A stretch of DNA of 64,000 nucleotides, from assembly GCA_009786125.1 (NCBI GenBank), contig WQTU01000139.1:72483-136482 (forward strand). The letters run 5' to 3'. The notes below the pieces were generated by a model that was given only the letters and a program-made list of their open reading frames with translations, was not told the DNA's origin and did no database searches. Positions 9,720-58,576 of this stretch are shown here, one piece after another. Made by a program: the position numbers and the translations under genes. The stretch is from Spirochaetota bacterium (GTDB lineage Bacteria > Spirochaetota > Spirochaetia > CADAEX01). Numbering within the stretch: position 1 is the stretch's first letter; each line of letters begins with the position of its first letter.

Positions 9720-12404
9720 CTATTCTTCAATAGATACCATGCTCCAGTTTGCCGGGTCAAAGATATTGGTGTGTACATGCATCCAATGATTAGGGTTAAT
9801 ATTAAATAAATATTCCGAATGTCGTCTCAAATTCGCTAATCTTGATGTTGTAATGATTACCCCATCTTCCTTGTCAGCTTCGAGCAATCTTCCTGTCCAT
9901 GGATTTATCGGGTTTTCAACAATGTTCTCAAGCGCTATAAGCGGTACATCGGCATGAGTCATAAATGAATCATTAACAGATAAAGGGCCGCGTGAATCAA
10001 AGTCCTTTACCATAAGGAGCGCTGTAACAGCCTCAAGATATTCTCTATTTGACAAAACAACATCCGCATTTTCAGGAAATAAGCGGCCACCGTTGTAGCC
10101 GTGATCCGAAACAATAATAATTCTTGTATTATCATACACCTCGTTTTCTTTTAGAAAGTCAAACCATTTTCCCAGCAGTAAAAGAGCAGCAATATTAGCA
10201 TGATAGCTGGCTTCGTTGGCAAATCGACCGCTTCCTCTATATGTTATTCTGTTTGCCGGAGTATAATCAGGAGCCTGCAAAAAGAAAGGACTATGAGTTA
10301 AATTACTTACTACCATTGTATAGGAATCAAACCTTTCTTCGCTTATCTTCGTAACATAAGGTAAAATCGCTAAAGCTATATAAAATCTTATATCAGGCTG
10401 CACGTTTTTCACCCACCATCCTGCACCATCATAAATAAGATTTCTGATTGGCAGCGGTGCAAATTTAAATATGGAAAACCTAATTAAGCGGGATTCTAGG
10501 GTTCTAGCTACATTTTCTGCCTTAGTAAAATTTTCATTATTCGATAGCCACAGATCGTCATATTTTCTCTCAATGCTTGTTATATTTAGTTTATGCGAGT
10601 TATTAAAAGTACTTGTGTCTACACCTTCTATACGAAAATGCGGATTAACCAGCGTTACATTAAATTCATGATCAAGAAAAATTCTGGGCAACAAGAAACT
10701 CGCTTCGATTTGTTTGTCTCTTAGCGAAACATCTTTTCTGCGCTGCATTTCAAGCGGTGTATATTCATACCCGCCAAGTAAAGCAGGCATCCCAAAAATA
10801 GTGAATGGTCCGAAAGCAACACTATTTTTATACCATGTAAAACCACTAAAAGAATAATGCAAGTGTGGTTTTTCATCAAAAATATAAGGAACAAATCCGC
10901 TTACTGCTCTATCAAGCACTAAAACCAAAACATTTCTCCCTGTTTTTGAAAATCGAAAAACCGGCTCATCTATTCCTCCGCTCCTTTTCTCTGTTTTCGC
11001 AAATTGCACTTGAAATGATTTAGATTCCCGATATACTTTAGCAACATTTATTGCGCCTAATAACACACATGCACAAACCGCAACTGTTAAGACAGATACC
11101 ATTATTTTTCTAAACCGCTGAATAAGTAATGGTATAAAAATAGCGATAATTGTTATAACGAGCAAGTTCAATAAAATCAATACTTTGCCCGAACTAACGC
11201 CATCAGAAAAGTAAAACGACAATGTCAAATGACCGTAGTTCCCGGAAAAAACAAAGGTGTTAACCAAGGCAATAACTGCAAACACAGCCATTGCTTTTGC
11301 CATTTTTGTGCTTTTAGATAACATCCAATAAATACAAAGCGGCGCTACAAAGAAAATCCCAAGAGATGACAATGCCGTATTAAGCATAAAAGAAAAAGGG
11401 CTTCCAAAAGTTTCAATAAATCCAAGAGTAAATGATGAAATTAATGAAGAAGGAATTACCACTCCCGCAAGTAAAAATAAAATAGCTGTTGACAATAAAA
11501 ATATGCCAGTCTCTTTGGCAGGCTCTTTATTATAGCTTGCGCATAACTGAGCGAAAAGACGTGTACGAAGTATTAATCCTTTAACTTTTTTAATAATCAG
11601 CGGGCACAAGAACAAGAAAAAAGGAATACATGTAAGAACAAGAGCAAGATTAATGCGTATTCCTATCCAGCCCCTGTGAAAAAACAACAAGAAAATATTT
11701 AAAAGCAAAACAAAAACCGAAACCAAAATCGGTATTAGCTGCTTTGAAAATTTTGTTTTTTGAATAAAATTCTTCGCAAGCGAAAATAAATTATTGCATA
11801 TCCAATAAAGTACCATGCCAGATGGAGAGTTATAGAGCAAAGCTAGAAATATTACGGCAATACCGTATACTTGAATCTTATCTCCGCGAGGAAACCCCTT
11901 AGTATATATTGCTCCAGAAACAACATTGATAAGTACCATCAAAATAGGAAGAAGATTTATACCCCAAAGAAACCTATCCGGAGCACTTAAGTCATTTATA
12001 AACAAAAAAGGTTGCCCGGTTAATAATTCTAGATTGCTTAGAAAATGCCAGGCAGCTATAAAAAATGGGATTTGGATAAATAGACTAAAGCTGTTACACA
12101 GGGCATGTATAGGATGATAATTATGCTGCCGGTATAAAGCCGACAGCATCATATATTGTTTATCGCCTTTAAAAACAGCTTTTATATTGTCCTTCATTCC
12201 CTTCATTTGCTTTTGTTTTTCTCGCTCTGCCCGCTGCTGTTTTTCAGCCAGCAGATAAAGCGGCAGAAGAATAAAACTTATTGCAACACTTACGCCGATA
12301 ATCGAAAATCCATGATTTCTAAAAATACGAAAAAAAAGTACATAGCATGCTTCTATTATTTGCTCGACGGGGAATATTATCAGACTGTAGAGAAAATTAA
12401 GCAT
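9720..12404 (-). CDS. YidC/Oxa1-domain protein fused to a sulfatase/phosphotransferase-like (alkaline-phosphatase fold) ectodomain
   Basis: N-term NHGFSIIGVSVAISFILLPLYLLAEKQQRAEREKQKQMKGMKDNIKAVFKGDKQYMMLSALYRQHNYHP...LFIQIPFFIAAWHFLSN...GQPFLFINDLSAPDRF aligns by eye to the YidC core; polytopic middle; C-term NVLVLVLDRAVS, GPFTIFGMPALLGG, NTRIIIVSDHGYNGG, HVHTNIFDPANWSM. Confidence 0.85.
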   Translation of the reverse strand: MLNFLYSLIIFPVEQIIEACYVLFFRIFRNHGFSIIGVSVAISFILLPLYLLAEKQQRAEREKQKQMKGMKDNIKAVFKGDKQYMMLSALYRQHNYHPIHALCNSFSLFIQIPFFIAAWHFLSNLELLTGQPFLFINDLSAPDRFLWGINLLPILMVLINVVSGAIYTKGFPRGDKIQVYGIAVIFLALLYNSPSGMVLYWICNNLFSLAKNFIQKTKFSKQLIPILVSVFVLLLNIFLLFFHRGWIGIRINLALVLTCIPFFLFLCPLIIKKVKGLILRTRLFAQLCASYNKEPAKETGIFLLSTAILFLLAGVVIPSSLISSFTLGFIETFGSPFSFMLNTALSSLGIFFVAPLCIYWMLSKSTKMAKAMAVFAVIALVNTFVFSGNYGHLTLSFYFSDGVSSGKVLILLNLLVITIIAIFIPLLIQRFRKIMVSVLTVAVCACVLLGAINVAKVYRESKSFQVQFAKTEKRSGGIDEPVFRFSKTGRNVLVLVLDRAVSGFVPYIFDEKPHLHYSFSGFTWYKNSVAFGPFTIFGMPALLGGYEYTPLEMQRRKDVSLRDKQIEASFLLPRIFLDHEFNVTLVNPHFRIEGVDTSTFNNSHKLNITSIERKYDDLWLSNNENFTKAENVARTLESRLIRFSIFKFAPLPIRNLIYDGAGWWVKNVQPDIRFYIALAILPYVTKISEERFDSYTMVVSNLTHSPFFLQAPDYTPANRITYRGSGRFANEASYHANIAALLLLGKWFDFLKENEVYDNTRIIIVSDHGYNGGRLFPENADVVLSNREYLEAVTALLMVKDFDSRGPLSVNDSFMTHADVPLIALENIVENPINPWTGRLLEADKEDGVIITTSRLANLRRHSEYLFNINPNHWMHVHTNIFDPANWSMVSIEE

Positions 12405-12427
12405 AAAAAATCCCTTGGAAAAAGCTC

Positions 12428-15115
12428 TTAATATTCAACATTTACCATACTCCAATTAGCAGGATCAAAAATATTGGTGTGGACATGCATCCATTCATCT
12501 GATCCAATATTAAGGCGATTACCGCGCTGGTGCCTTGGATTCCAAGTAATTGAACCGCTGACAAAAACGCCGCCACATTTCTGCTTAATAAGTTCTTTGC
12601 CTGTAAACGGATTTATCAAATCCTGAATAAGTCCTTCTGTTAATAGATGCGGAACATCCGCATTTGTCATAAAAGTATTATCTGTTCTTAAATCAAAGTC
12701 ATCATAAAAGTCTTTTAGCATCAATAATACATTATAATCTTCTAGAGGCATTCCATTAGGCAGGACAATATTGCCAGAAAATCGGCTGTTGGCGCCGCGA
12801 CCTCCATGGTCAGATACAATAATAATCCTGGTGTTATCATAAACACCGTTTTCTTTCAAAAAATCAAACCACCTTGCAAGCAATATAAAAGACGCTATAT
12901 TAACATGGTAATGCTTTTCATGAGCAAATGGACCTGCTCCTTTATTGGTAATAGTATTTACCGGGATATAATATGGCGCTTCAAAAAAAGCCGGAGAATG
13001 CGGCAGTTTGTTAATAAACATAACAGCGCTATTTATATTTTCATCTGTTATTTCAGTAATATAAGGAAGAACATAAAGGGCGGCAAAATTATTTATTGTG
13101 GCATGAGAATAATTCGCAGAATCCAGAAGTGTATCAAACCCTGAAAGAAATCTGCCTCTATCATATATTAATTTATGCAATATTAAAGGAGAAACTCTAA
13201 AGAAGGAAAAACGTATTAGTTTATCATAAAGTATTCTATAATAGTCTTTGAAATTAAAATCCCTATTGCGGCTCAGATAATAACTAGTAAAACGCTCAAG
13301 ATTCCTTCCGGCCCTTATATTATCAAACCTATTATAAAGCGAAAAATCCATCCATTGCTGATTATATACAGCTACCTTAAAACCAGCTTCTGCCATAATT
13401 CTAGGTAAAACCTGATATGATTCAAGAAATTTATCCACCCAGAACTCATCAGTGCGTTTTTGTATTTCAAGCGGAGTATAATAATAACCGCCAAAAATAC
13501 CCGGCATCCCCTGAATAGTAGATGGACCATGTGTTACTGTATTTGGAAAAAATGTAAACCCCTTAAAAGAATTACGTAATTCCGGTTTTTCTTCAAAGAT
13601 ATAAGGTACATAGAAGGACACAGCGCTGTCCAGAACAATGAGCAAAACATTTTTTCCAGTCCTGCTAAATGTATATTCTTTCCCAAGTGTAAAAGAAGAT
13701 CCTCTCTCTTTATCTTGAGACCCTTGTATAGCCTGGTATTCAATTTTGATATTAACAATATTTACTACTCCTAAACATAACAAAGCAATAACCACAATAC
13801 TTTGTATGGACAACAACACCTTTTTTCTCTTCCACATCAAAAGCAGTAACATTGCTACACAGACAATTAGCATAGCAATAATATTTATTATCTTCTGGTT
13901 GCTGGGGCTCTCTCTAAAATTAAGAAAATGCAAGTCTGGCGTCATAGCGCCATAGTTTCCGATAAATACGAATGCATTTATCAAAAATACCCCTAAAGTG
14001 AATGTTAAAATAATTGCTAACAATATTTTTGCCCGTCTATCAAATAAAAAATAAATACAAAGTAACCAAAGTAAAATACCAAGTGACTGGGTAAGAATTA
14101 TGCCTATATAAGGAAGTGGAGAGGAAAACGGCTGCAAAAATGAAAATTGCTCAACATTGGAAGCTATGAGACCCGAAGGGATTACAAGCCCGATTAACAA
14201 AAACAGACCCATTAAAGATAAAAAGAAGGTCTTTCCTGGCAACTCAAGCGCTGTATTTTTTATATCTATTTTTCTTTTTATAATTCTCCAGATTTTTTTC
14301 CAAACAGGTATCAGTAAAAACATTGCAAGAAACACAATAACAAAAAAAAGTTCTAAAAGAGGCCTATCTATTGAGTCTCTGCGGAAAAACATTTGCCAAA
14401 CAACCAAGCTTACACCAAACAGCAAAATCAATACACTTATTATTTGTTTTGCATTTTTTGTTTTTAACAATATATTTTTAATCAAATTGTAGATGTTATT
14501 GCACGTCCAGTACAATACCAAAGCAGCAGGAGAATTATAAAGTAAAATAAAGAAAATTATTGATATGCTATAAACTTGTACTTTGTCTTTTATTGCTAAA
14601 CCATTTGTATATATTGCTCCCGAAATAACATTTATAAGTATCATTAAAATTGGAAGGAGATTTATACCCCCCCATAAAAACCCGTCAGGAGCGCTTAAAT
14701 CATTGATAAACCAAAAAGCAGTTCCATTCAGTCTTCCCAAATTACTTAGAAAATGCCAAGCAGCAATAAAAAATGGAATTTGAATAAATAGCTCAAGACT
14801 GCTTCGCAGGGCATATACAGGATGATAATTATTCTGCCGATACAAAGTTGACAACATCATAAACCGTTTATCGCCCTTAAAAACAGCTTTTATGTTGTCC
14901 CGCATCCCCTTCATTTGTTTCTGCTTTTCACGCTCTGCCTGCTGTTGTTTTTCTGCCATAAGTGAAAGCGGTAGGATAAGAGTACTTACTATTATACTTA
15001 TAGCAATAATGGAAAAGCCGTGGTTTCGCAAAATATGAAAAACAAAAACATGAGAAAGTTGTATTATTTGTTCAACTGGAAATATAACAAGAGTATAAAG
15101 AAAAGTAAGCATCAA
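12428..15115 (-). CDS. YidC/Oxa1-sulfatase-like fusion, paralog of the adjacent gene
   Basis: Same architecture: NHGFSIIAISIIVSTLILPLSLMAEKQQQ..., FIQIPFFIAAWHFLSNLGRLNGTAFWFINDLSAPDGF; NVLLIVLDSAVS, GPSTIQGMPGIFGGYYYTP, NTRIIIVSDHGGRG, WMHVHTNIFDPANWSMVNVEY. Confidence 0.85.
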   Translation of the reverse strand: MMLTFLYTLVIFPVEQIIQLSHVFVFHILRNHGFSIIAISIIVSTLILPLSLMAEKQQQAEREKQKQMKGMRDNIKAVFKGDKRFMMLSTLYRQNNYHPVYALRSSLELFIQIPFFIAAWHFLSNLGRLNGTAFWFINDLSAPDGFLWGGINLLPILMILINVISGAIYTNGLAIKDKVQVYSISIIFFILLYNSPAALVLYWTCNNIYNLIKNILLKTKNAKQIISVLILLFGVSLVVWQMFFRRDSIDRPLLELFFVIVFLAMFLLIPVWKKIWRIIKRKIDIKNTALELPGKTFFLSLMGLFLLIGLVIPSGLIASNVEQFSFLQPFSSPLPYIGIILTQSLGILLWLLCIYFLFDRRAKILLAIILTFTLGVFLINAFVFIGNYGAMTPDLHFLNFRESPSNQKIINIIAMLIVCVAMLLLLMWKRKKVLLSIQSIVVIALLCLGVVNIVNIKIEYQAIQGSQDKERGSSFTLGKEYTFSRTGKNVLLIVLDSAVSFYVPYIFEEKPELRNSFKGFTFFPNTVTHGPSTIQGMPGIFGGYYYTPLEIQKRTDEFWVDKFLESYQVLPRIMAEAGFKVAVYNQQWMDFSLYNRFDNIRAGRNLERFTSYYLSRNRDFNFKDYYRILYDKLIRFSFFRVSPLILHKLIYDRGRFLSGFDTLLDSANYSHATINNFAALYVLPYITEITDENINSAVMFINKLPHSPAFFEAPYYIPVNTITNKGAGPFAHEKHYHVNIASFILLARWFDFLKENGVYDNTRIIIVSDHGGRGANSRFSGNIVLPNGMPLEDYNVLLMLKDFYDDFDLRTDNTFMTNADVPHLLTEGLIQDLINPFTGKELIKQKCGGVFVSGSITWNPRHQRGNRLNIGSDEWMHVHTNIFDPANWSMVNVEY

Positions 15116-15846
15116 AAATCCCTTATATAAAATTTTTCATATACATCAATATCATTTTGGTTATCACATTCAAACCACTGTTCTGTTGTTTCGATTGTCT
15201 CAATATAGTTTCCTAAAGTTATCAGATGTTGTAAAAGAGTTGTCATATCCAGTTTTTCAACAGACTTAGGCATAGGTAACTTAATGGCTTGCTCTATTTT
15301 TTTCCATCCTGATGGCTCAAATTTTAACAGCCCCATATATTGACCCTGAACCTCTTCTTTAACAGATGGCTTTTTACCTATCTCAAAAAGTCTCTTATTC
15401 TGCATCTTGAATGTTTCCAAATCGTTCAACGGGTCATCAAAACGTTTGCTCCACAAATCCCAAAACCCGGTATAGTATGTTATGGAAAACTCCTGGTCTG
15501 ATTGCATTAGTTTTTTTACTGCTGCCGGAGAGAAAACAATATCTGAATAACTTATTACACAAGGCTCGCGATGCAGCCACTCCGCTGCTTTGGTAAGAGA
15601 AACAAACATATTTGTTGTTTCCCATTCCGCATTGTGGAAATAATGCACACCATGCGCCTGAATAGCTTCACTTTTGTAGCCGGTAACAATGCCTATGTCG
15701 CCAAGAGCAAAACCTGCTTTCTGCAAACTTTCGAGGCAGTGGTCCAAAAGTGTTTTGCCCCATAGTTTCATCATGCACTTGGGAAGGTTTGCGGTTCCTT
15801 CCTTCATTCTGCTGCCTCTGCCAGCAGCAAGTATTATCGCTTTCAT
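15112..15846 (-). CDS. NTP transferase, candidate CTP:phosphoglutamine cytidylyltransferase (Cj1416-like)
   Basis: MKAIILAAGRGSRMKEGTANLPKCMMKLWGKTLLDHCLESL pyrophosphorylase motif; function inferred from synteny with the two upstream genes. Overlaps the next gene by 4 nt. Confidence 0.75.
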   Translation of the reverse strand: MKAIILAAGRGSRMKEGTANLPKCMMKLWGKTLLDHCLESLQKAGFALGDIGIVTGYKSEAIQAHGVHYFHNAEWETTNMFVSLTKAAEWLHREPCVISYSDIVFSPAAVKKLMQSDQEFSITYYTGFWDLWSKRFDDPLNDLETFKMQNKRLFEIGKKPSVKEEVQGQYMGLLKFEPSGWKKIEQAIKLPMPKSVEKLDMTTLLQHLITLGNYIETIETTEQWFECDNQNDIDVYEKFYIRDF

Positions 15847-16454
15847 TAAGATTCTCCCTGTACTCCAGCGGCAAACAAGCCGCGAACAAGCTCAATATCT
15901 TCCATCGCAAAGGGCGCTTCCCGCTCCGGATGCCACATTATCCCTGCTATGGGCAGCTCTCTGTGCTTAATATATTCAACTTCGCCATCTGCGGAGATGG
16001 CAAGCACCAGCAAGTCTTCGGGTATTACATCCGGCGCAAAGTTGTGATAGCTGTTAACGTTGCGTTTTATATCCAGATTATGCCGTATAGCCACATGCCC
16101 TTCAATTTTGCGCAAGGTCCCACCAAAATAGAGGGCAATGGATTGAGTACCCCGACACACACCCAGTAACGGCACATTTTTCTTTATGGCATACGAAATC
16201 AAAAACTCGTCGATGGTATCGCGTTCCGGGGCAGAGCCTCCGTAAGCCTCAGGAGTGTTACCTCCGCTTAGCAGAATACCATCCGGCTGCATGGACTCAA
16301 GCATTTTCGCAAGCATGGGTTCATGATTAAAAACAGGCATTCCAATGCAGCCGGCCTCCCACAAAAACTCTGCCCACCTTTGGTCAAGAGCATCCCGGCG
16401 CTCCTGATAGCTGGTAATCACATCTACTCGCTGGCTTATAAGTACGCGTTTCAT
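15846..16454 (-). CDS. Class I glutamine amidotransferase / gamma-glutamyl hydrolase, candidate gamma-glutamyl-CDP-amidate hydrolase (Cj1417-like)
   Basis: ILLSGGNTPEAYGG, PLLGVCRGTQSIALYFGG (nucleophile Cys), IMWHPERE (His/Glu). Confidence 0.78.
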   Translation of the reverse strand: MKRVLISQRVDVITSYQERRDALDQRWAEFLWEAGCIGMPVFNHEPMLAKMLESMQPDGILLSGGNTPEAYGGSAPERDTIDEFLISYAIKKNVPLLGVCRGTQSIALYFGGTLRKIEGHVAIRHNLDIKRNVNSYHNFAPDVIPEDLLVLAISADGEVEYIKHRELPIAGIMWHPEREAPFAMEDIELVRGLFAAGVQGES

Positions 16455-18778
16455 TTAAGAACTTCTATTTTTCTGTTCGCGCAGTCTATCCGCAGCCTTT
16501 TAGCAGAGGATAGTCTGTCGAAAACCTTTTCGCCTACGCCGATTGCAGCAGGAATGCCCAGCTCCCCTGCCCTTATAGCCATATGCGAATTCGCGCCGCC
16601 ATATGCAGTAATAAAACCAAGTATCTTGCAGGAAAAAATCCAGTCGAAACCAGGGTCAGCTGCTCTTATTAGCAATATTTTCCCCGAAATATTATCCCTG
16701 CAAAGCCCTTCTGCACAAACTTCGCCAGCAGTCTCGCCAAGTGTAATATAATTAGGTATGCTAGTCGGCATATGAAAAGCATAAATGTCATCGGGATTCA
16801 GGATCACCGGCGGCATGGTTAAACTCAGTGTTTCCGCATAACGTCTTTTTCCTTCTGTAATGGAATCAGCAAGCGCGGTTTTCATGTCCGAGGAGGAAGA
16901 ATAGAGCTTGTCTATCAAAAAATAATCAAGGTATGCCATATCTTCGCGGCTAAATCCATATGATTCGCCTAACTTTGCCAGCAATTCCAATACATGAGAA
17001 AGGCTTTTGGTAAATACAAATTTGGAATATTCTCTTCCTTCAATACCTGCTTTTAGAAATTTAAAAAGAGCCAATACATCGCCCTGCAGTCCCTGGTTTT
17101 TCATTTCGCTTTGAATCGCAGCATATTGCTCCAGAGAAAGCATAAAAGGTTCCCGCTCCTGGTCTGGCATATCAATATTTTGCCCGCCAAGATACATTTC
17201 CGGCGCCATGTCGTAGCGCTTGGAAGTAATATCGTAAGTTCCGGGGCGCAAGTGTCCGTATTTGCGAAGAAAAGCAGCCTGCGAAAGTTCCTGCCAGTCC
17301 GCAGACATCTCGGAGCTTATGGTTTTAAGACTTCCCATATAATTTTGGTAATCCCGCTCCGACAAAATACCAATAGCAACAAGCGACTTTAAAAGCTGCA
17401 CTGCTATAAATCCTGCCCGGGCAAGCCCTGCAAATGGCAGGGTTCCGTAGCGCGTACAGTCCGCCATTAACCAATATATTTTGGATATATCATCCATATC
17501 ACTGGAAATAATTATTTCCCGCCTCTTGTCCAAAATATCTATTTTTTCGGTGTCAATAATCCACAAACCAGTACTTACATTTATTATATTGTTTGTTAGA
17601 CCGCACAACGAATTTCGCAAAGTATCGATATCCGCCTGAGTAAAGCCATGTGCAGATAAAATCTTGAGCCGCTGAGGCAAATCAAAAGTGTTGCAAGAAA
17701 AAACAATCTCGAACTCCACTTTGTCGTGCTTGTCCGGGTCGCTCGCAAGACTATCCAGATAATAATTTGCAAGTTTTTCGCTTAGCTTGTCATCTATATC
17801 TTTTGGGATAAACGAATTAAAACTAATCCTGACATCGATGTAGGGCAGCCCGCAAAATTCAACCATAAGCGGAAAGCTGCGAAGGTTTTTATAGCCGTAT
17901 TCATTGCGCTGATACGCCCATGTACCATCAGTTATAAGCCTGCGGTATAATGATGAAGCCAGCGGCTTGGGGCGGATGCCAATCATCTCTGCCGGGTTCC
18001 AGTCAGGCATAACGCCGTAAATAGCCCGGCTTCCCTGAGCATAAGGATGCTTTCCCATGCCTATGCTTATAAAGCTGTGGGCGCGCGCCAAAGCTTCGCC
18101 CTGCTTTTCAATACCCGCAATCTCTTGCTTCAAAACCAACGGGCGCGCCTGTAAAATATATAAAGTGCCGTCTTGTGTAAATGCAAATTCAATATCAATA
18201 TTATTTTTACCAAAGAGCTGCATCAATTCCCCGGCAGCCTCTGCAAGAGAGTCCAGGCGGCTGTCCCCACAGCGTTTCCCGTGGAATATATAACAGGTAG
18301 ACGAGTCTGCCATTTGTCCGGAAGTTATAGACTCCGAAGAGCCGCTGCTGCTGTCATAGTTAATAACGAAATAATTCCCGCCTGTGTTGGGGTCTACAGT
18401 AAACAACACCCCGGACATAGCAATATTTTGCAGCATGGGTTGCACTAAAATCTGATTCCCCGGGTTGTTATCTTTATAAGAACCACACACTTTTTTTGCC
18501 GCATCTATTACGTCGGCAGGAGCAACATTCAAGATCGAAAGAAAATGCCCTGCAAGAGACTCATTTTCACTATCTTCATTAAGAGCAGAAGAGCGCACAA
18601 TCAACGCACCGGAATTTCCGATCGCGCCAGACAACTCTGCGAACACGCGCTCTTTTATTGCGTTTGGGTTAGCAAGCAGCTCGCCTGTTGTAAATGTAAC
18701 TTGCGGCAGTATTTTGCTTTTTGTAACACAAGAGGCCATCGCATTTAAAGTATTTGCTTTGGTCGAAAATTTAAGCAT
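16451..18778 (-). CDS. PEP-synthase/PPDK-like ATP-grasp with phosphohistidine domain, candidate L-glutamine kinase (Cj1418-like)
   Basis: ALIVRSSALNEDSENESLAGHFLSILNV (PPDK_N); VLFTVDPNTGGNYFVINYDSSSGSSESITSG; C-term TAYGGANSHMAIRAGELGIPAAIG mobile His domain. Confidence 0.8.
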   Translation of the reverse strand: MLKFSTKANTLNAMASCVTKSKILPQVTFTTGELLANPNAIKERVFAELSGAIGNSGALIVRSSALNEDSENESLAGHFLSILNVAPADVIDAAKKVCGSYKDNNPGNQILVQPMLQNIAMSGVLFTVDPNTGGNYFVINYDSSSGSSESITSGQMADSSTCYIFHGKRCGDSRLDSLAEAAGELMQLFGKNNIDIEFAFTQDGTLYILQARPLVLKQEIAGIEKQGEALARAHSFISIGMGKHPYAQGSRAIYGVMPDWNPAEMIGIRPKPLASSLYRRLITDGTWAYQRNEYGYKNLRSFPLMVEFCGLPYIDVRISFNSFIPKDIDDKLSEKLANYYLDSLASDPDKHDKVEFEIVFSCNTFDLPQRLKILSAHGFTQADIDTLRNSLCGLTNNIINVSTGLWIIDTEKIDILDKRREIIISSDMDDISKIYWLMADCTRYGTLPFAGLARAGFIAVQLLKSLVAIGILSERDYQNYMGSLKTISSEMSADWQELSQAAFLRKYGHLRPGTYDITSKRYDMAPEMYLGGQNIDMPDQEREPFMLSLEQYAAIQSEMKNQGLQGDVLALFKFLKAGIEGREYSKFVFTKSLSHVLELLAKLGESYGFSREDMAYLDYFLIDKLYSSSSDMKTALADSITEGKRRYAETLSLTMPPVILNPDDIYAFHMPTSIPNYITLGETAGEVCAEGLCRDNISGKILLIRAADPGFDWIFSCKILGFITAYGGANSHMAIRAGELGIPAAIGVGEKVFDRLSSAKRLRIDCANRKIEVLK

Positions 18779-20021
18779 TTTGCACCGTCAATCCTTCCAC
18801 TGTCTCGATCATAAAATTAGCCACCCGCTTTCCTGCTTCGCCAGGATATTGCCATGCCTGTGTCTTGACTTCTTTTATGGCTGATTCCATAGCGTTACTT
18901 TCAGAAACCTTTGAGATCTGGCTCGGCAAGTCATTCAACAAATCCGGCTTTAACTCTATACCGGTTTTTTTCAAGTTGCGAAAAGTCCATATTTCTTCCT
19001 GATCCTCATAAATCTGAAACGCATCACGAGATCGCCAGTCAAGTTTTTCAGATACATAAAAAACCGGCTTATTTCGTAAAAACATATAATCCAATATTAT
19101 GCCTGAAAAATCAGAAATCATAACATCTGCCTTTTTAAGTGAATATATATTATCACGTTCAAAGTCCCACTCCAAATTCGCATTGCTGGCATAACGCGAA
19201 GAAAGGCGGTCTATTATCTCTTTTTCGACAAGCAATGATTGCGGATGAGGTCTCACGATAATCCGCCACCCTGTTGCCACTAATGGGTCCAGCAGTTTCT
19301 CCCCAAATCTGGAAAGCAAAGCAACTTCGCTCCAGGATGGCGAAACCAGAACTGTAAAAATGCTATTTTCTTCTGCGGGAATCTGTTCAATTTTTTTAAC
19401 AAATTCATCCAAATAAGAGCAGCCTACGGTAACAATTTGTTTTTCCGGCAAATTGCGCACTTTCTCAAGTTTTCGAATGTGTTCTTCCTGATAATCCCGC
19501 CCATTTACCAAAAGCGAATCAAAATAATCCATGCCAAATAATTCACATTGTGCAAATTCCGAAGGAGTATGAAAAAGGTGGCTGTAATGTTTAACCATTT
19601 TAGAGCGCTTCCACTGATACACATCAAGCCCCGGCGTCGTTGCAAGAACAAAATCAGCAGAAAGAAAATTGAGCCTCGCAAAAGCTTTGTTGCCCCCGCC
19701 CAGGCACTCAGCCTTTACATGCTTAAACCCGGCATCAAAAACAGGGTCGTCTTTGGATGCGGTTAAATAGAGAAGGTCTATTCCTCGGCTTTCAAATTCT
19801 TCCACAACAGGCTTAAAGAGCGTCCAATAACGCTTGTCTTCTGCATAAATAACAAACTTGTTTTTTGATCCGTGTTTTGCCCTGCCGCCTGTAAAAAAGG
19901 ATTTTATCTTTATATACATAGCCTGAAATGTAAAATAAACCGCGGCTGCTATGCCAATAAGTATGGAAAAAATAGCGCTCCCTGTTCCGGGATCAATGTA
20001 AAGAAAAGGTAAAGATATCAT
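18771..20021 (-). CDS. CDP-glycerol glycerophosphotransferase family (TagB/TagF-like)
   Basis: N-terminal TM LPFLYIDPGTGSAIFSILIGIAAAVYF; VVRPHPQSL-like IIVRPHPQS; SLKKADVMISDFSGIILDYMFLRNKPVFYV. Confidence 0.78.
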   Translation of the reverse strand: MISLPFLYIDPGTGSAIFSILIGIAAAVYFTFQAMYIKIKSFFTGGRAKHGSKNKFVIYAEDKRYWTLFKPVVEEFESRGIDLLYLTASKDDPVFDAGFKHVKAECLGGGNKAFARLNFLSADFVLATTPGLDVYQWKRSKMVKHYSHLFHTPSEFAQCELFGMDYFDSLLVNGRDYQEEHIRKLEKVRNLPEKQIVTVGCSYLDEFVKKIEQIPAEENSIFTVLVSPSWSEVALLSRFGEKLLDPLVATGWRIIVRPHPQSLLVEKEIIDRLSSRYASNANLEWDFERDNIYSLKKADVMISDFSGIILDYMFLRNKPVFYVSEKLDWRSRDAFQIYEDQEEIWTFRNLKKTGIELKPDLLNDLPSQISKVSESNAMESAIKEVKTQAWQYPGEAGKRVANFMIETVEGLTVQNA

Positions 20022-20119: not shown

Positions 20120-21526
20120 CTAAAACCCAAATTTTAATAGGTCTAAAAATCCCAAAATGATATGATTAACTCTGTCTGAAGGCCGTATTGCTGCAACAGG
20201 TCCAAGAAATAGCATCGTAGCACACGCAACTATTATATACCACTTATTTCTATTAATAACAGGAGCCATCTTGGCAACTACAGTTAGTACAGTATTGTTT
20301 TTTACATAGATCAAATAGAAAATCAACATAAACTGGATCAGGATAATCATTATCATCCATCTGCCAAAATCAAAAAACATGAAAAAAACCGGAATATGAT
20401 AAACAAAAAGTAAAACAGGAAGAGTGAAAAATAATTTCATATATCGTTTTTGTTCAACGCGAAAGCAACATATCCAGAAGTATGCAAACAATACAATTAA
20501 AGGCAAGTTAATAAGCACACTTATTGTTCCCGAGAATTTCAAGAAACCCCAACCTGCCATCAAACCTCGCCAATCTGATAAATGATCTCCAAATCCTGCG
20601 AAGAATATCATGTGTATAAATTCGTATGCATAGTTAAGATCTGTTTTTGTTTTTATATATTCTACAAAAGCAGCAGCATCCGGAAACATAAAAGTCTGTT
20701 TGGCAAACAAAAGGTACGAAATAAAGCTTGAGACAACAACGACAAAACTAACAAAAAACAGGGCGATATATGATTTTTTTTCAGGTAACTTGTAAAATAA
20801 CAATATAAAAATAAATGGGATATAAAAAAACACCAGAATAAGATGTATTGATATGGTAAACAAGGCAAAAACCGGAATAAGCCACTTTAAGTATTGGTTA
20901 TCAATAATTGCTACCAAAATCAACATAAAAAGCAATGCGTATATTTCAGACCTGCCAAAATTATTTGGAGTAAAATATGCAGCAGGAGAAGCAAAACATG
21001 TTAGCAACAGCAAGGATAAAAACAACACAAAAGGTTTTATATTGTCTTTATTGCTTTTAATAAAATAGCCTAGGTAGACAGAAATCAAAAATATCATAAG
21101 TATCAAAGAGCAGAAAATAAAGTGCCATACAAAGTATCTTGAAATAAACTCCCCGTTTGAGAGAAAATCTACTACAGTTCCTAAAAAACCCCTTGATGAA
21201 ACTCCATAACGATATGACAAAAGAAAAGTACTTGCAGTAAGAGAGCACAAATTATCGATTTTAGGCGCCAGTGCAAGTAGTTGTATAAAAAGAAAGGAAA
21301 ATATACCAACTTCATATTTGTTTATACTATTCTTATACAGGATTACTAAATACATTATGCAAGCTGTAAATATATAAAGAGCAGGTATTTTGATTAAATT
21401 TGTGCGAAAGAAAACAAGGCAAAATAAATCGCAAAAAACCAAAAAAAATAAAACAACCATTAGTCGAAAACGAGTTTTATTAGAATAAAGAGTTTTATCT
21501 TCGTTACTTACTGCTTTAAGCATCAT
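20120..21526 (-). CDS. Polytopic membrane protein (candidate GT-C/Gtr-type glycosyltransferase), paralog A
   Basis: ~12 hydrophobic segments; near-identical long stretches to the adjacent ORF (e.g. SFLLSYRYGVSSRGFLGTVVDFLSNGEFIS). Confidence 0.7.
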   Translation of the reverse strand: MMLKAVSNEDKTLYSNKTRFRLMVVLFFLVFCDLFCLVFFRTNLIKIPALYIFTACIMYLVILYKNSINKYEVGIFSFLFIQLLALAPKIDNLCSLTASTFLLSYRYGVSSRGFLGTVVDFLSNGEFISRYFVWHFIFCSLILMIFLISVYLGYFIKSNKDNIKPFVLFLSLLLLTCFASPAAYFTPNNFGRSEIYALLFMLILVAIIDNQYLKWLIPVFALFTISIHLILVFFYIPFIFILLFYKLPEKKSYIALFFVSFVVVVSSFISYLLFAKQTFMFPDAAAFVEYIKTKTDLNYAYEFIHMIFFAGFGDHLSDWRGLMAGWGFLKFSGTISVLINLPLIVLFAYFWICCFRVEQKRYMKLFFTLPVLLFVYHIPVFFMFFDFGRWMIMIILIQFMLIFYLIYVKNNTVLTVVAKMAPVINRNKWYIIVACATMLFLGPVAAIRPSDRVNHIILGFLDLLKFGF

Positions 21527-21548: not shown

Positions 21549-22940
21549 TTAAAAAACAAACTTTAACAAGTCTAAAAAACCTTCTGCGATATGCATAATC
21601 CTGTGAGAAGGCCCTTTTATTAGAACAGGTCCAAGAAATAGCATTATGGCACATGCAACTATTATATACCACCAGTTTTTATTAATAATAGGAACCATTC
21701 TACCTGCTACAATTAATACTGTATTGTTCTTTACATAGATTAAATAAAAAATCAACACAAACTGAATCAAGATAATCATTACCATCCATCTGGCAAAATC
21801 ATAAAATAGGAAAAAAACCGGTATATGATAAATAAAAAGTAAAACAGGAAGAACAAAAAAGATTTTCATGTATCGCTGCTTTTCTTGTAAAAAACAACTT
21901 ATCCAAAAGTATGCAAACAATACAATTAAAGGCAAGTTAATAAGCACACTTAGATTTCCTTTAAACATCAAAGACACTCTGTCCTTCCAGCCAAGCAAAT
22001 GTTCATGAAACTCTGCAAAAAATATCATATGTATATCGAATAGCAAAAACTCAATATCTGTTTTTGTTTTTAAATACTCCAGAAAAGCAACAGCATCCGG
22101 AAACACAAAAGTCTGCTTGGCAAACAAGAGGTACAAAATAAAGCTTGAGACAACAACCACAAAGCTAACAAAAAACAGGGCTATATATGATTTTTTTTCG
22201 GGCAACTTGTAAAACAGCAAGATAAAAATAAAAGGGATATAAAAAAATACCAAAATAAGATGTGTTGATATTGTAAACAAAGCAAGAAGCGGTATAAACC
22301 ACTTAAGGTATTGGTTGTCAATAACTGCTACTAAAAGCAGCATATAAATCAATGCATACATCTCAGATCTGCCGAAATTTTGCGCGGTAAGATATGTCGA
22401 AGGAGAAGCAAAACATGTTAGCAGCAACAAGGATAAAAATAACACAAAAGGTTTTATATCATCTTTGCTATTTTTGATAAGATAGCCCAAGTAAACAGAA
22501 ATCAAAAAAATTAGAAACACAGTTGAGCAAAAAATAAAGTGCCACACAAAATATTTTGAGATAAACTCCCCGTTTGAGAGAAAATCTACTACAGTTCCTA
22601 AAAAACCCCTTGATGAAACTCCATAACGATATGATAAAAGAAAAGAATTTGCAACAAGTGAATTCAAATTATCGAATTTCGGCGCCATTGCAAGCAGTTG
22701 TACAAAAAGAAAAGAAAATATACCAACTTCATATTTGTTTATACTGTTTTTATACAGAATTATTAAATACATTATGCAGGCTGTAAAAATATAAAGAGCA
22801 GGTATTTTAATTAAATTTGTACGAAAGAAAACAAGGCAAAATAAATCGCATAAAACTAGAAAAAACAAAACTGCCATTAGTCGAAAACGAGTCTTGCCAG
22901 AGTAAAGAGTTTTATCTTCGGTGCTTACTGCTTCAAGCAT
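21549..22940 (-). CDS. Polytopic membrane protein (candidate GT-C/Gtr-type glycosyltransferase), paralog B
   Basis: Start reassigned to ATG 22940 (MLEAVSTEDKT), overlapping the upstream stop as TAATG; strongly similar to paralog A. Confidence 0.7.
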   Translation of the reverse strand: MLEAVSTEDKTLYSGKTRFRLMAVLFFLVLCDLFCLVFFRTNLIKIPALYIFTACIMYLIILYKNSINKYEVGIFSFLFVQLLAMAPKFDNLNSLVANSFLLSYRYGVSSRGFLGTVVDFLSNGEFISKYFVWHFIFCSTVFLIFLISVYLGYLIKNSKDDIKPFVLFLSLLLLTCFASPSTYLTAQNFGRSEMYALIYMLLLVAVIDNQYLKWFIPLLALFTISTHLILVFFYIPFIFILLFYKLPEKKSYIALFFVSFVVVVSSFILYLLFAKQTFVFPDAVAFLEYLKTKTDIEFLLFDIHMIFFAEFHEHLLGWKDRVSLMFKGNLSVLINLPLIVLFAYFWISCFLQEKQRYMKIFFVLPVLLFIYHIPVFFLFYDFARWMVMIILIQFVLIFYLIYVKNNTVLIVAGRMVPIINKNWWYIIVACAIMLFLGPVLIKGPSHRIMHIAEGFLDLLKFVF

Positions 22941-24043
22941 TATACTCTCCTGAATACATACCATTTTGCCATAATAAAGTTAACTGTCATTCCTGCTGCA
23001 ATACCGCCTGCCTGGGCAATTACTTTATAAGGAAACTCAAAATTAGACAATAGTGCTTTCAAGACAAGAAGATTTACTGCTAGCCCGAGAAGTGAAATTG
23101 CAATAAATTCAATCCACTTTTTGGGAGATAATGTTTTTTCTGCTGTATCGCGCTTAAACGACCACTTGTGATTGATAATATAGTTTTGAGTAACAGCAAT
23201 CAAAAAACAAATAGTGCTAATTTGAATCACTGGCAGCCCGAAAATATCGACACAGAAAAAGAAAATGATCAGATTAGTTAATGTTCCAAGCCCGCCGGTT
23301 ACAGCAAATTTGATAAATTGATCAACACCAGTATCACGACCTACGCTGCGTTTTATTCTCCAAACATTAATAAACGCTTCCAGAAAAATATTTTTCGACA
23401 TTTTTGAAGCCCCTAGTGTTCTATCTGTAAACAGGATAGGAACTTCCTTAACAGAGCAACCTGCAGCCCAGGCTCTGTACTTTAATTCAATTTGAAAAGA
23501 ATAACCCTTTGAAATAATGTTTTCCAGACCAATTTTTTCCAGCGCCCTTCTCGTCAACATATTAAAACCGCCGGTCAAATCTTTAATGGGGCAGCCAAAA
23601 ATCATGCGGGAATATAGCGATCCGCCTTTTGAGACTATGTTTCTAAGCATTGTCCACCCCTCAACACCACCGCCTTTTATGTTTCTGGAACCAATAACAA
23701 CATCATGCGTGTTAAGTTCCGAAAGCATTTTAGGAATGTATTTGGGATTATGGGAAAAATCTGCATCCATTTCAAGAAAAGCTTCATAATGGCGGGACAA
23801 ACCCCATTCAAATGCAGCAAGATATGCAGCTGCCAAGCCTTCTTTTTTTGGACGATTTAAGATATGTAGTCTGCCAGAATAAGAAGAAATAAGCTGTTCT
23901 ACTATTTTTGCAGTTCCATCAGGAGAATTATCATCCGCTACAAGAATTTCGACTTCTTGAGGAACAACATCAAAAGTAGCTTTTAAAATAGCTTCTATAT
24001 TTTCTGCTTCATTATAAGTGGGGATGGCAATTAAAAGTTTCAT
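22940..24043 (-). CDS. Polyprenyl-phosphate glycosyltransferase (DPM1-like GT2) fused to C-terminal GtrA domain
   Basis: LLIAIPTYNEAENIEAILKATFDVVPQEVEILVADDNSPDGT; LEMDADFSHNPKYIPKM; C-term QFIKFAVTGGLGTLTNLIIFFFCVDIFG...ITQNYIINHKWSF GtrA-like. Confidence 0.9.
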   Translation of the reverse strand: MKLLIAIPTYNEAENIEAILKATFDVVPQEVEILVADDNSPDGTAKIVEQLISSYSGRLHILNRPKKEGLAAAYLAAFEWGLSRHYEAFLEMDADFSHNPKYIPKMLSELNTHDVVIGSRNIKGGGVEGWTMLRNIVSKGGSLYSRMIFGCPIKDLTGGFNMLTRRALEKIGLENIISKGYSFQIELKYRAWAAGCSVKEVPILFTDRTLGASKMSKNIFLEAFINVWRIKRSVGRDTGVDQFIKFAVTGGLGTLTNLIIFFFCVDIFGLPVIQISTICFLIAVTQNYIINHKWSFKRDTAEKTLSPKKWIEFIAISLLGLAVNLLVLKALLSNFEFPYKVIAQAGGIAAGMTVNFIMAKWYVFRRV

Positions 24044-25140: not shown

Positions 25141-26511
25141 TTATTCTGCCAACATTTTTTTAACTCTTTGCCCTTCCTCAGTCAAGCAATATTTTTGCAA
25201 GCGGCTGTTGGGCTTGCCAGGAATAGTCATTTCAATTAAACTAAGTTTTAATGCGGGCTGAATATAGTTCTGTCTGAAATTTTCTCTGTCACTTAGCTTT
25301 AGATATGCCTGTATTTCTGCCCTATCCCTTTCTCCATCCAGCATTTTTAACAACTCACGGACTTGCGGGGTGACTTGCGGGGTGACTTGCGGGGTGACTT
25401 GCGGGGTGACTTGCTGATTTTTCTCAAAATACTCAACACTAAAAATCATTGGATCCTCTGTAATACCAAGAGAGAGATGCGGATAATCTTTTAACCAATC
25501 TCTAATCCGAATAAAACCTGTTCCATATTTTTCAATATCACCCATTAAGTAAAAAACTTCAGTTAGCAATTTATTTCTATGTCTTGCTTTATAAACATTT
25601 TCTCTCAGATCATTAATCGTTAGCCCATTAAGCAATCGCCCTGGATTGGAAATTTCTATGCGGTCATCAAAAATCTTAATAATTACGTCTGTCGGATTTG
25701 AATAGTCTTTATGAACAATAGCATTAAGCAGCGACTCTCGTATTGCCTGTAATGGAAATTGCCATATTTCTTTTCGTTTAAGTTCTCCTGTAAATTCATA
25801 TCCCAACCTAATATTTCTTTTAACAAAAATCATTGCTTCTTCTACTGCTAAGACCAAAGGGCTTCGAATTAAAAGATCATCAATAATCGTCTCTCTGGTC
25901 TTAAATCTACCAATGTGAATTCCTGTAAAATGCGTTCCAAAAAGAAGCTGCGCTGCACGGGTTAACTTTTCATTTACAACTAATCCGAGTTTTAAAAAAT
26001 CGTCTTTAATATTACTGCCCAAAAGAAGTCTTCCGGATTCAAGCAAGCGTTTCGAAAAGAGAGATATTGCCCTGTCATCTAATTCCTCAAACTTGGTTTC
26101 TACGGGAAAAGAGTCAAAAGAATAACTCAAGCTGATAAGCCTCAATTCAGTAATTTCATCAATAGACAAAATATGGTTTGAATTTTGCTTTCTTATAAAA
26201 TACTTGTTTTTATAAGACACTGGCTTTACTGGAAATTCGCTTACATTTATTTCTACAACAGTTTTGCTATCAATTTCAATAACATTAAAATCCGGAAAAA
26301 TTGCAGGCTGAGTACTTTGTTTGATTTCATTGATCCAACTTTGAATGCTTTCATTAGCAAGCTGTATGCCAACAACTTCTTTTTTATTATTAATACCAAG
26401 ATAAATCTTGCCGCCCCTGGAATTGGAAAAAGCGATAATAGTTTCAATAACTTCTTTGTTGAACGAAGACTTAAATTCTATTGTGTCAGATTCTTTTTCA
26501 GGTATTCGCAT
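25141..26511 (-). CDS. AlbA_2 / HATPase_c_4 putative DNA-binding regulator with VTPQ repeat linker and C-terminal HTH
   Basis: ESDTIEFKSSFNKEVIETIIAFSNSRGGKIYLGINNKKEVVGI; LNAIVHKDYSNPTDVIIKIFDDRIEISNPGRL; VTPQVTPQVTPQVTPQV. Confidence 0.88.
   Translation of the reverse strand: MRIPEKESDTIEFKSSFNKEVIETIIAFSNSRGGKIYLGINNKKEVVGIQLANESIQSWINEIKQSTQPAIFPDFNVIEIDSKTVVEINVSEFPVKPVSYKNKYFIRKQNSNHILSIDEITELRLISLSYSFDSFPVETKFEELDDRAISLFSKRLLESGRLLLGSNIKDDFLKLGLVVNEKLTRAAQLLFGTHFTGIHIGRFKTRETIIDDLLIRSPLVLAVEEAMIFVKRNIRLGYEFTGELKRKEIWQFPLQAIRESLLNAIVHKDYSNPTDVIIKIFDDRIEISNPGRLLNGLTINDLRENVYKARHRNKLLTEVFYLMGDIEKYGTGFIRIRDWLKDYPHLSLGITEDPMIFSVEYFEKNQQVTPQVTPQVTPQVTPQVRELLKMLDGERDRAEIQAYLKLSDRENFRQNYIQPALKLSLIEMTIPGKPNSRLQKYCLTEEGQRVKKMLAE
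25361..25414. repeat. 12-bp tandem repeat, 4 perfect units plus partial (acttgcggggtg)n, in frame
   Basis: Read directly; encodes VTPQ units on the minus strand. Confidence 0.97.
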
Positions 26512-34677: not shown

Positions 34678-36150
34678 TTATTCACCGGCTTGTCCTTTCT
34701 TCTTAATCTTCCAGAACCCTCTTGTTTTACCTTCCCGTTCAATGAATCCCTTCTTTTTTAACGCGTCCAAGTGTTTTTGTATTGCAGACTCATTTACATT
34801 CATTTGCTCAGCCAACATTTTACGGCTAATAGACGGATTTTCTTTTATTATGTTTAAAGTTTCCATTTGTTTATTGGTCAAACCACCTATTTGACCACCT
34901 ATTTGACCACCTATTTGACCACCTATTTGACCACCTATAGTTTCTTGAGCTTCTCGCCTTATCACTACCTGGAAACCATGTTTCGAAATAAATTCAGGCT
35001 TTCCAAGTCCCTTTGCTATACATTGTTTGGTCATTTCTTCTGTTCCGGTTCCCATTCGTTCGATAGTGCCTTGTAAGTACATTGCTTCTGCAATCAATGG
35101 ATTGGCCGGCATTGAACGATGTGCTGTGTATAATTGCTCTATAGTTAGTTCGCTTGGAAAATTTCCGGGATTTGAAACCTCAAATCTGTCGGCAAATAAC
35201 ATCACCTGTACACTGCCGTTACTCGTGTAGTCGCGATGCGCAACAGCATTGACAATTGCTTCGGTAACTACTTGTTTAGGAATTTCGTACTCTACTTCAA
35301 CGTTTATATTCTTACTGCGGTCGCCAACATAGAGGTTTATTTTCGACAGCACAAAATCAACAGCTCGCTCAATCATATGAAAAACATCGCCCTTATAAAC
35401 CTGATACGATGGTATTGGTTTTACCTTATCCATTCCGTGAAAATGGGCACAACGCACTTCGGAAGTAATAAAAAATTGCTGCGGTTTTTTTCCGAATAAT
35501 AAAATGGCAGCATTGGTAATTTTATCGCCTTTAATTAAATTTAAATGAGTCAATACATTTATTATATTGCTTGATTTGTTAAAAGGGAAATTTCGTTTTT
35601 CTTGTGCAATTTCGACAAAATTATGAACTTTTTCTTCATCAATATCGTCAAGCGTAGCATCTCTGTTTAGTGTTGCATCGAATGGCGCTGTGCGAATATA
35701 TTCATTTTCAATTAAATAATTCACAAGCGAGGCATAGACAGCTATTTTTAGCTGTTCTTGTGTATCAAAACCTCTGCGAACAATCACGTTTTCGGCTTTT
35801 TTTACCAACAGTGATTCTTTTGCTTCTCGCTGCTTTGCTCGTTTTACATAAACAAAACGAATCTTGTTTTTTTCGCTTGCATAATCAAATTCCTTTTCAG
35901 TTGGTGAAATACCTGATTTATCTCCAAAGCCATATTTTTCGCCAAAAATTCCTAAATATATGTCGCTTTGTTCAAGTTCATTCAAAAAAACATTTGACGG
36001 TAAATGATTTGCAGCAGGTACATTTTCAAAAATAAACGGCTCAAAAAATTTCCCCAATAAAATATCAGAAGTCAAATAGTCAAAGAGCATTTGCCGTTCT
36101 ACTGCAAATTCAGATTGTACACTGCTTATAAAAACTCGCTTTTTTTTCAT
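34678..36150 (-). CDS. DUF4062 / HATPase_c_4 / winged-HTH putative regulator with IGGQ repeat linker
   Basis: MKKKRVFISSVQSEFAVERQMLFDYL (DUF4062); EAIVNAVAHRDYTSNGSVQVMLFADRFEVSNPGNFP; IGGQIGGQIGGQIGGQIGG; LNIIKENPSISRKMLAEQMNVNESAIQKHLDALKKKGFIEREG. Confidence 0.85.
   Translation of the reverse strand: MKKKRVFISSVQSEFAVERQMLFDYLTSDILLGKFFEPFIFENVPAANHLPSNVFLNELEQSDIYLGIFGEKYGFGDKSGISPTEKEFDYASEKNKIRFVYVKRAKQREAKESLLVKKAENVIVRRGFDTQEQLKIAVYASLVNYLIENEYIRTAPFDATLNRDATLDDIDEEKVHNFVEIAQEKRNFPFNKSSNIINVLTHLNLIKGDKITNAAILLFGKKPQQFFITSEVRCAHFHGMDKVKPIPSYQVYKGDVFHMIERAVDFVLSKINLYVGDRSKNINVEVEYEIPKQVVTEAIVNAVAHRDYTSNGSVQVMLFADRFEVSNPGNFPSELTIEQLYTAHRSMPANPLIAEAMYLQGTIERMGTGTEEMTKQCIAKGLGKPEFISKHGFQVVIRREAQETIGGQIGGQIGGQIGGQIGGLTNKQMETLNIIKENPSISRKMLAEQMNVNESAIQKHLDALKKKGFIEREGKTRGFWKIKKKGQAGE
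34882..34938. repeat. 12-bp tandem repeat, 4 units plus partial (accacctatttg)n, in frame
   Basis: Read directly; encodes IGGQ units on the minus strand. Confidence 0.97.
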
Positions 36151-58542: not shown

Positions 58543-58576
58543 TTTTATTACTGTTTGTGACATTTTATTCTCTTTT
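58543..58576. repeat. 34-bp perfect direct repeat, copy 2 (decoy wzt start MSQTVIKFDLGINL*)
   Basis: TTTTATTACTGTTTGTGACATTTTATTCTCTTTT, identical to 56848-56881; offset 1695 bp. Confidence 0.97.

Follow-up and report, generated by a model that had tools for sequence, protein, structure and literature searches.

The 64,000-nucleotide stretch of Spirochaetota bacterium contig WQTU01000139.1 analysed here (assembly GCA_009786125.1, positions 72,483 to 136,482 of the forward strand; hereafter the window) carries two adjacent genes, each joining a YidC/Oxa1-like domain to an ectodomain of the alkaline phosphatase (AP) superfamily, next to genes resembling those for phosphoramidate synthesis. The locus raises the question of what the fold of the YidC insertases is doing at the front of such an enzyme, and whether the phosphoramidate genes reveal the group that the enzyme handles. 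With a probability of about 0.6, we propose that the fusions are threonine-dependent phospho-group transferases working with a TagF-like protein on phospho head-groups activated by cytidine triphosphate (CTP).

Both genes lie in tandem on the minus strand. Copy b, the downstream one, occupies 9720..12404 and encodes 894 amino acids; copy a, the upstream one, occupies 12428..15112 and encodes 894 amino acids from an ATG at 15112, or 895 from an alternative TTG at 15115, which is counted as residue 1 in all copy a numbers given here. The two proteins are 46% identical end to end. An initial annotation made from the sequence had described two adjacent proteins of about 895 residues composed of an Oxa1/YidC domain, a polytopic segment and an AP-type ectodomain, and this description is borne out by the open reading frames and by Pfam: PF02096 matches the two copies at 3.1e-25 and 5.5e-25 (residues 33-217 in copy a), and PF00884 (Sulfatase) matches copy a from residue 488 at 9e-11 and copy b weakly, at 0.008. 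In copy a, the YidC/Oxa1-like domain covers residues 1-220 (14456..15115, minus strand), seven hydrophobic helices follow in residues 221-480 (13676..14455, minus strand), made up of two linkers and a five-helix set like that of EptA and PbgA, and the extracytoplasmic AP/sulfatase-fold domain fills residues 481-895 (12428..13675, minus strand). When hydropathy is averaged over 64 full-length relatives, the seven helices show up as maxima within residues 221 to 460, with a positive-inside pattern; because seven helices precede it, the ectodomain is predicted to lie outside if the YidC part keeps its usual orientation. The AlphaFold2 model of copy a (13 input sequences; mean predicted local distance difference test, pLDDT, 75.5) runs from YidC helices through more membrane helices to an AP-type domain in which Thr533 begins a helix. 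The most fitting description of the fusion is a YidC domain ahead of a complete EptA/LtaS-type enzyme. Since the NCBIfam matches of the fusions are YidC models, annotation pipelines would likely call them 'membrane protein insertase YidC', masking the enzyme half.

The evidence for an enzyme comes from the ectodomain. The LVLD, SDHG and GP(F/S)TI(F/Q)GMP motifs and the shared HVHTNIFDPANWSMV tail reported in the initial annotation are all present in the fusions. In copy a (minus strand), D496 (13628-13630), T533 (13517-13519), H706 (12998-13000), D769 and H770 (12806-12811) are identical in all 64 full-length relatives, so that the motifs cannot be attributed to chance; N489, N761 and K801 are likewise invariant. 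The matching residues of copy b are Asp498, Thr535 (approximately nucleotides 10800-10802) and Asp767-His768. By motif and fold, as distinct from metal binding, these residues are probably equivalent to the nucleophile and metal ligands of LtaS, whose Thr300 and ligands we take to be their counterparts; the first metal ligand is Asp in the fusions and Glu in LtaS. The predicted nucleophile is Thr, as in LtaS, EptA and OpgB and unlike the formylglycine sulfatases. Foldseek searches with the copy a model gave full-length MCR-1, PbgA and EptA, in that order, as the top three matches, and LtaP and LtaS at lower ranks; VIA-align 2 gave Z 20.0 for LtaP (304 residues, 4.2 A), with LtaP, LtaS, EptC and PbgA at Z 19-20, and its PbgA alignment starts at residue 283, thus spanning membrane helices and ectodomain. 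The earlier suggestion of LtaS/EptA/MdoB-like threonine chemistry agrees with both the invariance of these residues and the high rank of these enzymes. LtaS and LtaP share with the fusions a membrane part followed by an AP-fold ectodomain with a Thr nucleophile and Asp/His metal ligands, but the fusions differ in their N-terminal YidC domain, two linker helices and near-constant TagF-like partner, and in nearby donor genes that point to CTP-activated head-groups. EptA, MCR-1, EptC and PbgA (YejM) resemble the fusions in both membrane part and ectodomain, which the top Foldseek matches cover together, but they lack the YidC module; PbgA is not known to be a phosphoethanolamine transferase.

The YidC half shares with the YidC/Oxa1/SpoIIIJ insertases the PF02096 family match and the fold (3.9 A over 204 columns on E. 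coli YidC 6al2 in Foldseek), but it differs from them in the groove, in its phylogeny and in extra C1-loop residues. The position of the conserved groove charge, five residues ahead of an invariant Pro, is Ser44 in copy a (nucleotides 14984-14986, minus strand) and Ser43 in copy b, and each of the 64 fusions has S, N or T at this site, whereas the 29 aligned housekeeping YidCs have K in 23 cases and R in 6. Stand-alone YidC-like proteins have N or T there. The fusion domains form a clade apart from the housekeeping YidCs with a split support of 0.999. The initial annotation had placed AEKQQ at the position of the groove Arg; the absence of the charge holds, but AEKQQ itself belongs to the C1 loop, some ten residues further downstream.

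These differences bear on one rival explanation of the domain, namely that it is a working insertase or chaperone that serves its own polytopic enzyme or the TagF-like partner and takes no part in handling lipids. The fold and the cytosolic C1 hairpin are retained, and in E. coli YidC the groove Arg (366) is dispensable and a neutral residue is tolerated if position 517 is aromatic or hydrophilic (PMC8920935); a YW motif at 202-203 is invariant in the fusions. Because of this tolerance, the loss of the charge is not decisive against insertase activity and is weaker evidence than the initial annotation had assumed when it doubted that the fusions were insertases. That doubt stands in so far as the fusions are not the housekeeping YidC: all 30 genomes tested encode a separate one (best E-values 4e-48 to 2e-64), which rules out the fusion as the sole YidC of the cell. 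The charge is gone from all 64 fusions and from the stand-alone versions too, the latter still adjoin a TagF-like gene, and relatives such as LtaS and EptA are not known to need a dedicated insertase, all of which makes a pure insertase role rather improbable. Lipid handling by a YidC fold has a precedent in the lipid scrambling shown in vitro for purified E. coli YidC (PMC10491306).

Another explanation would be a mis-assembly or a read-through joining unrelated genes, but nothing was found in its favour and its probability is negligible. The full-length fusion profile matches proteins in 85 of 344 Spirochaetota genomes belonging to 25 genera, single-contig genomes included, as well as in 9 of 291 genomes of the class of a Clostridia genome and 3 of 185 of the class of a Duodenibacillus genome; this recurrence rules out both mis-assembly and a chance fusion, and confirms that, as first annotated, an assembly error is not supported. 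On one Spirochaetia contig (L002, 7224-19597) there are five tandem copies, four of full length and a fifth cut by the contig end.

Tandem copies differ unevenly along their length. Between copies a and b, identity is highest in the YidC domain, at 71%, falls to 28% in the central membrane segment and rises again to 46% in the ectodomain. In 20 of 22 in-genome tandem pairs the YidC identity exceeds the between-genome mean expected from the divergence of the ectodomains (median +7 points). In the adjacent copies of L047 (7111-9927 and 9939-12797) the YidC domains are 94% and the ectodomains 51% identical, which suggests module swapping or gene conversion. Alike YidC domains with diverged ectodomains would fit copies that share a partner on the donor side but serve different acceptors.

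The most constant neighbour of the fusion, overlooked in the initial annotation, is a gene for a TagF-like GT-B protein, in the window at 18771..20021 (minus strand), with an N-terminal membrane helix and a YIDPGTGS motif. It occurs in 37 of 44 fusion loci (each fetched as a stretch with flanks), always on the same strand and in 31 directly adjacent, in both gene orders and often with a 4-nucleotide overlap; L020 is one more locus, beyond the 37, where it directly adjoins the fusion. In a sample of 164 genomes, assumed to be the first ones listed, all 29 genomes with the TagF-like gene also have the fusion (Fisher p 2e-31, shared ancestry being ignored), and the TagF-like gene is missing from just one genome with the fusion, a draft assembly in about 450 contigs. 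The model of the TagF-like protein (pLDDT 78.4) consists of the N-terminal helix and a GT-B fold that aligns with TagF 3l7i at Z 20.5 over 349 residues and with TarL 8va1 at Z 19.7, and its RPHPQS and SD-SG motifs are invariant. PF04464 scores 21.4 in the window protein, just below the gathering cut-off of 22.1, and lies above it in the homologues of L014 and L020. The GT-B fold and the RPHP and SD-SG motifs are thus those of the TagF/TarL teichoic acid polymerases, from which the partner differs by its single N-terminal helix with YIDPGTGS and its near-fixed pairing with a YidC-fold protein.

The modules also occur in other combinations. In L014, from the genus of the window genome, and in L051, YidC-like, TagF-like and sulfatase-fold proteins are encoded by three separate nearby genes; L052 has YidC-like and TagF-like genes followed by a homologue of the L051 sulfatase with no Pfam match of its own. 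The five catalytic residues are retained by the separate sulfatase of L014 and by one from L018, and a Thr together with the DHG motif is preserved in the sulfatase-type proteins of L051 and L052. In L054 a single 692-residue protein joins the YidC-like part, here with Lys in the groove, to the TagF-like part, directly upstream of Cj1418-, Cj1417- and Cj1416-like genes. Together, the split versions and this one YidC-TagF fusion support a putative three-module machine. As a recurrent type the YidC-TagF fusion was ruled out, L054 being the only case in 344 genomes.

In the window, the TagF-like gene is linked to the fusion by genes similar to those of the Campylobacter jejuni O-methyl phosphoramidate pathway. 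All are on the minus strand: a Cj1418-like L-glutamine kinase at 16451..18778 (NF004508, 911 bits against a cut-off of 501), a putative Cj1417-like gamma-glutamyl-CDP-amidate hydrolase of the glutamine-amidotransferase fold at 15846..16454 (NF045546 being its best NCBIfam match, at 120 bits against a cut-off of 250; CDP, cytidine diphosphate), and a Cj1416-like nucleotidyltransferase at 15112..15846 (PF12804). In the chain from TagF-like protein through kinase, hydrolase and nucleotidyltransferase to fusion every junction overlaps, by 1 or 4, 1, 4 and 8 nucleotides counting back from the fusion, the 8 being shared by kinase and TagF-like gene. The overlap of 4 nucleotides at 15112-15115 first described holds for the TTG start; with the ATG start the TGATG junction overlaps by 1. 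A promoter scan at background level and a terminator scan slightly above it were uninformative. The C. jejuni pathway (Cj1415-1418, with transferases Cj1421 and Cj1422) thus has its Cj1416-, Cj1417- and Cj1418-like genes together here, but it differs in the transfer step, apparently carried out by other proteins, and in the kinase Cj1415: no credible match to it was found in the window genome, only a partial APS_kinase match (47 residues, 1.8e-4).

The coupling to phosphoramidate claimed at first therefore stands for the window, as one overlapping operon, and fails as a general rule. The glutamine kinase is rare: it occurs in 3 of the 344 Spirochaetota genomes, 85 of which have the fusion, and in a single genome among the 291 of the Clostridia class. 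It is absent from the other fetched fusion loci, and of the four kinase loci detected, two have contexts that lack the module, so that the co-occurrence of the fusion with Cj1416-1418-like genes across genomes, proposed as a check, was not seen as a special link. One of the two, in a spirochaete (L056, 6521-10848), combines the kinase with a Cj1415-like kinase (recognised by eye) and a methyltransferase-like gene and has no YidC-sulfatase nearby; in the other, from the Clostridia class (L087, 2834-5614), a glutamine kinase of 926 residues has an N-terminal cytidylyltransferase-like (TagD-like) domain. A general link was ruled out on these counts and on the context of L087.

Other loci carry genes for other head-groups. 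Phosphoenolpyruvate (PEP) mutase and phosphonopyruvate decarboxylase (Ppd), with a 2-aminoethylphosphonate (AEP) transaminase-cytidylyltransferase or an alcohol dehydrogenase, lie near the module in L003, L021, L040, L041, L042, L047, L048, L051, L052, L092 and L093, some of these sets being incomplete. PEP mutase was found in 8 of 40 spirochaete stretches, compared with at most 0.35 expected even with one per genome. Nucleotidyltransferase-aminotransferase fusions are near the module in L003, L025, L026, L053 and L094, and from their FrbH- and CobD-type homology our guess is that they may make CDP-ethanolamine. A LicC-LicA-type protein is encoded in L046, and TagD-like proteins in L014, L015, L028 and L035. 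Since the donor genes vary while the glutamine kinase is so infrequent, the phosphoramidate genes appear to be one among several interchangeable donor supplies, and, as judged from gene content, the general link of the fusion is to the TagF-like partner and to variable genes for CTP-activated head-groups. The PEP mutase, Ppd, AEP transaminase and PntC-like fusions are those of phosphonate tailoring with PntC cytidylyltransferases; the description of that pathway leaves open the steps after cytidine monophosphate (CMP)-AEP, and YidC and sulfatase proteins are absent from its text (PMC6697681).

The same variety could mean that the fusions are general envelope glycerol-phosphate or phosphoethanolamine transferases and that the phosphoramidate genes are an unrelated insertion in the operon, an explanation to which loci with phosphonate, choline-type or TagD-type genes, or with none, and the scarcity of the kinase lend weight. 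It is somewhat unlikely, given the overlaps at every junction of the window chain and the Cj1418-1416-like genes beside the YidC-TagF fusion in the independent locus L054. Whether phosphoramidate is the group moved by the window system is in our view an even question.

Within the transferase reading, the following mechanism can be envisaged. A CTP-activated head-group would be made in the cytosol, here cytidine diphosphoramidate, by the predicted activities of glutamine kinase, cytidylyltransferase and gamma-glutamyl-CDP-amidate hydrolase. The TagF-like protein, taken to be a cytoplasmic enzyme anchored in the membrane, would, to judge from its GT-B/TagF homology and the operon structure, move the phospho head-group from CDP or CMP to a membrane lipid of the inner leaflet, and the YidC fold, without its usual groove charge, would hand the loaded lipid to the outer face, a step for which lipid scrambling is the precedent (PMC10491306). 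The ectodomain Thr would then form a phospho-Thr intermediate, as suggested by active site and fold, and donate the group to a glycan of the cell surface, the product of the neighbouring glycosyltransferases; tandem copies would have different acceptors. In the window the group would be phosphoramidate without 3'-phosphorylation, a step left out because no credible Cj1415-like kinase was found in the genome. The full lipid relay from TagF-like protein through YidC fold to Thr enzyme is a tentative part of this proposal and somewhat less likely than not.

Several observations weigh against the transferase reading. Many plain sulfatases reach the same Z as LtaP in VIA-align 2, so that the fold alone does not separate a transferase from a hydrolase; a phosphonate monoester hydrolase is the best PDB sequence match of the ectodomain profile; and an intact AP-superfamily site could hydrolyse instead of transfer. 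For many fusion loci no donor gene can be recognised within the stretch that was fetched, several Brachyspira-like loci have no TagF-like gene nearby, and the glutamine kinase is rare. Gene conversion would yield the same divergence pattern between YidC domain and ectodomain, and the tandem pairs are not independent. The ectodomain might then be a phosphodiesterase, or a phosphonate or phosphate ester hydrolase, with a part in trimming or recycling phospho-groups of the cell surface; loading of glycan precursors in the cytosol would be left to the TagF-like protein alone, as would suit a family established, for TagF and TarL, to act directly on lipid-linked acceptors. Such a hydrolase would have no obvious need for a YidC domain and an EptA/PbgA-like membrane domain, its nucleophile would be the Thr of LtaS, EptA and OpgB and not the formylglycine-forming Cys or Ser of sulfatases and phosphonate monoester hydrolases, and amplification to 4-5 tandem copies better fits multiple acceptors; we consider it improbable.

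More broadly, the YidC/Oxa1 fold may, though this is less than an even prospect, have been recruited to pass a lipid or donor in a three-part envelope-decorating machine with interchangeable CTP-activated head-groups, among which phosphoramidate, phosphonates, phosphocholine, phosphoethanolamine and glycerol phosphate would be candidates. This would give the universal YidC fold a non-insertase job, provide a candidate for the final step still lacking in bacterial phosphonate tailoring, after CMP-phosphonate (PMC6697681), and in some phosphoramidate tailoring, and tie P-N, P-C and phosphocholine decorations to one conserved machine common in spirochaetes. Both halves belong to known families; the YidC-sulfatase combination, a groove charge lost throughout the clade and an almost constant TagF-like partner are new in that they are undescribed in the open-access literature searched, where YidC combined with sulfatase, phosphonate or glycerophosphotransferase returned nothing relevant, subscription journals being outside the search and an earlier description there being possible. 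A literature search for a lipoteichoic acid-like glycolipid of Treponema returned nothing useful.

Two further groups of genes were noted in the window, all on the minus strand. In the same gene run as the module, 20120-21526 and 21549-22964 encode tandem polytopic proteins of about 470 residues that match no Pfam or NCBIfam model convincingly; blocks of their DNA share 81-88% identity. In the glycan gene region, 25141-26511, 34678-36150, 41144-42376 and 58575-60098 encode four proteins that by eye resemble AlbA_2/Schlafen-type ATP-binding regulators, some of which have terminal repeats (VTPQ, IGGQ, NNTE).

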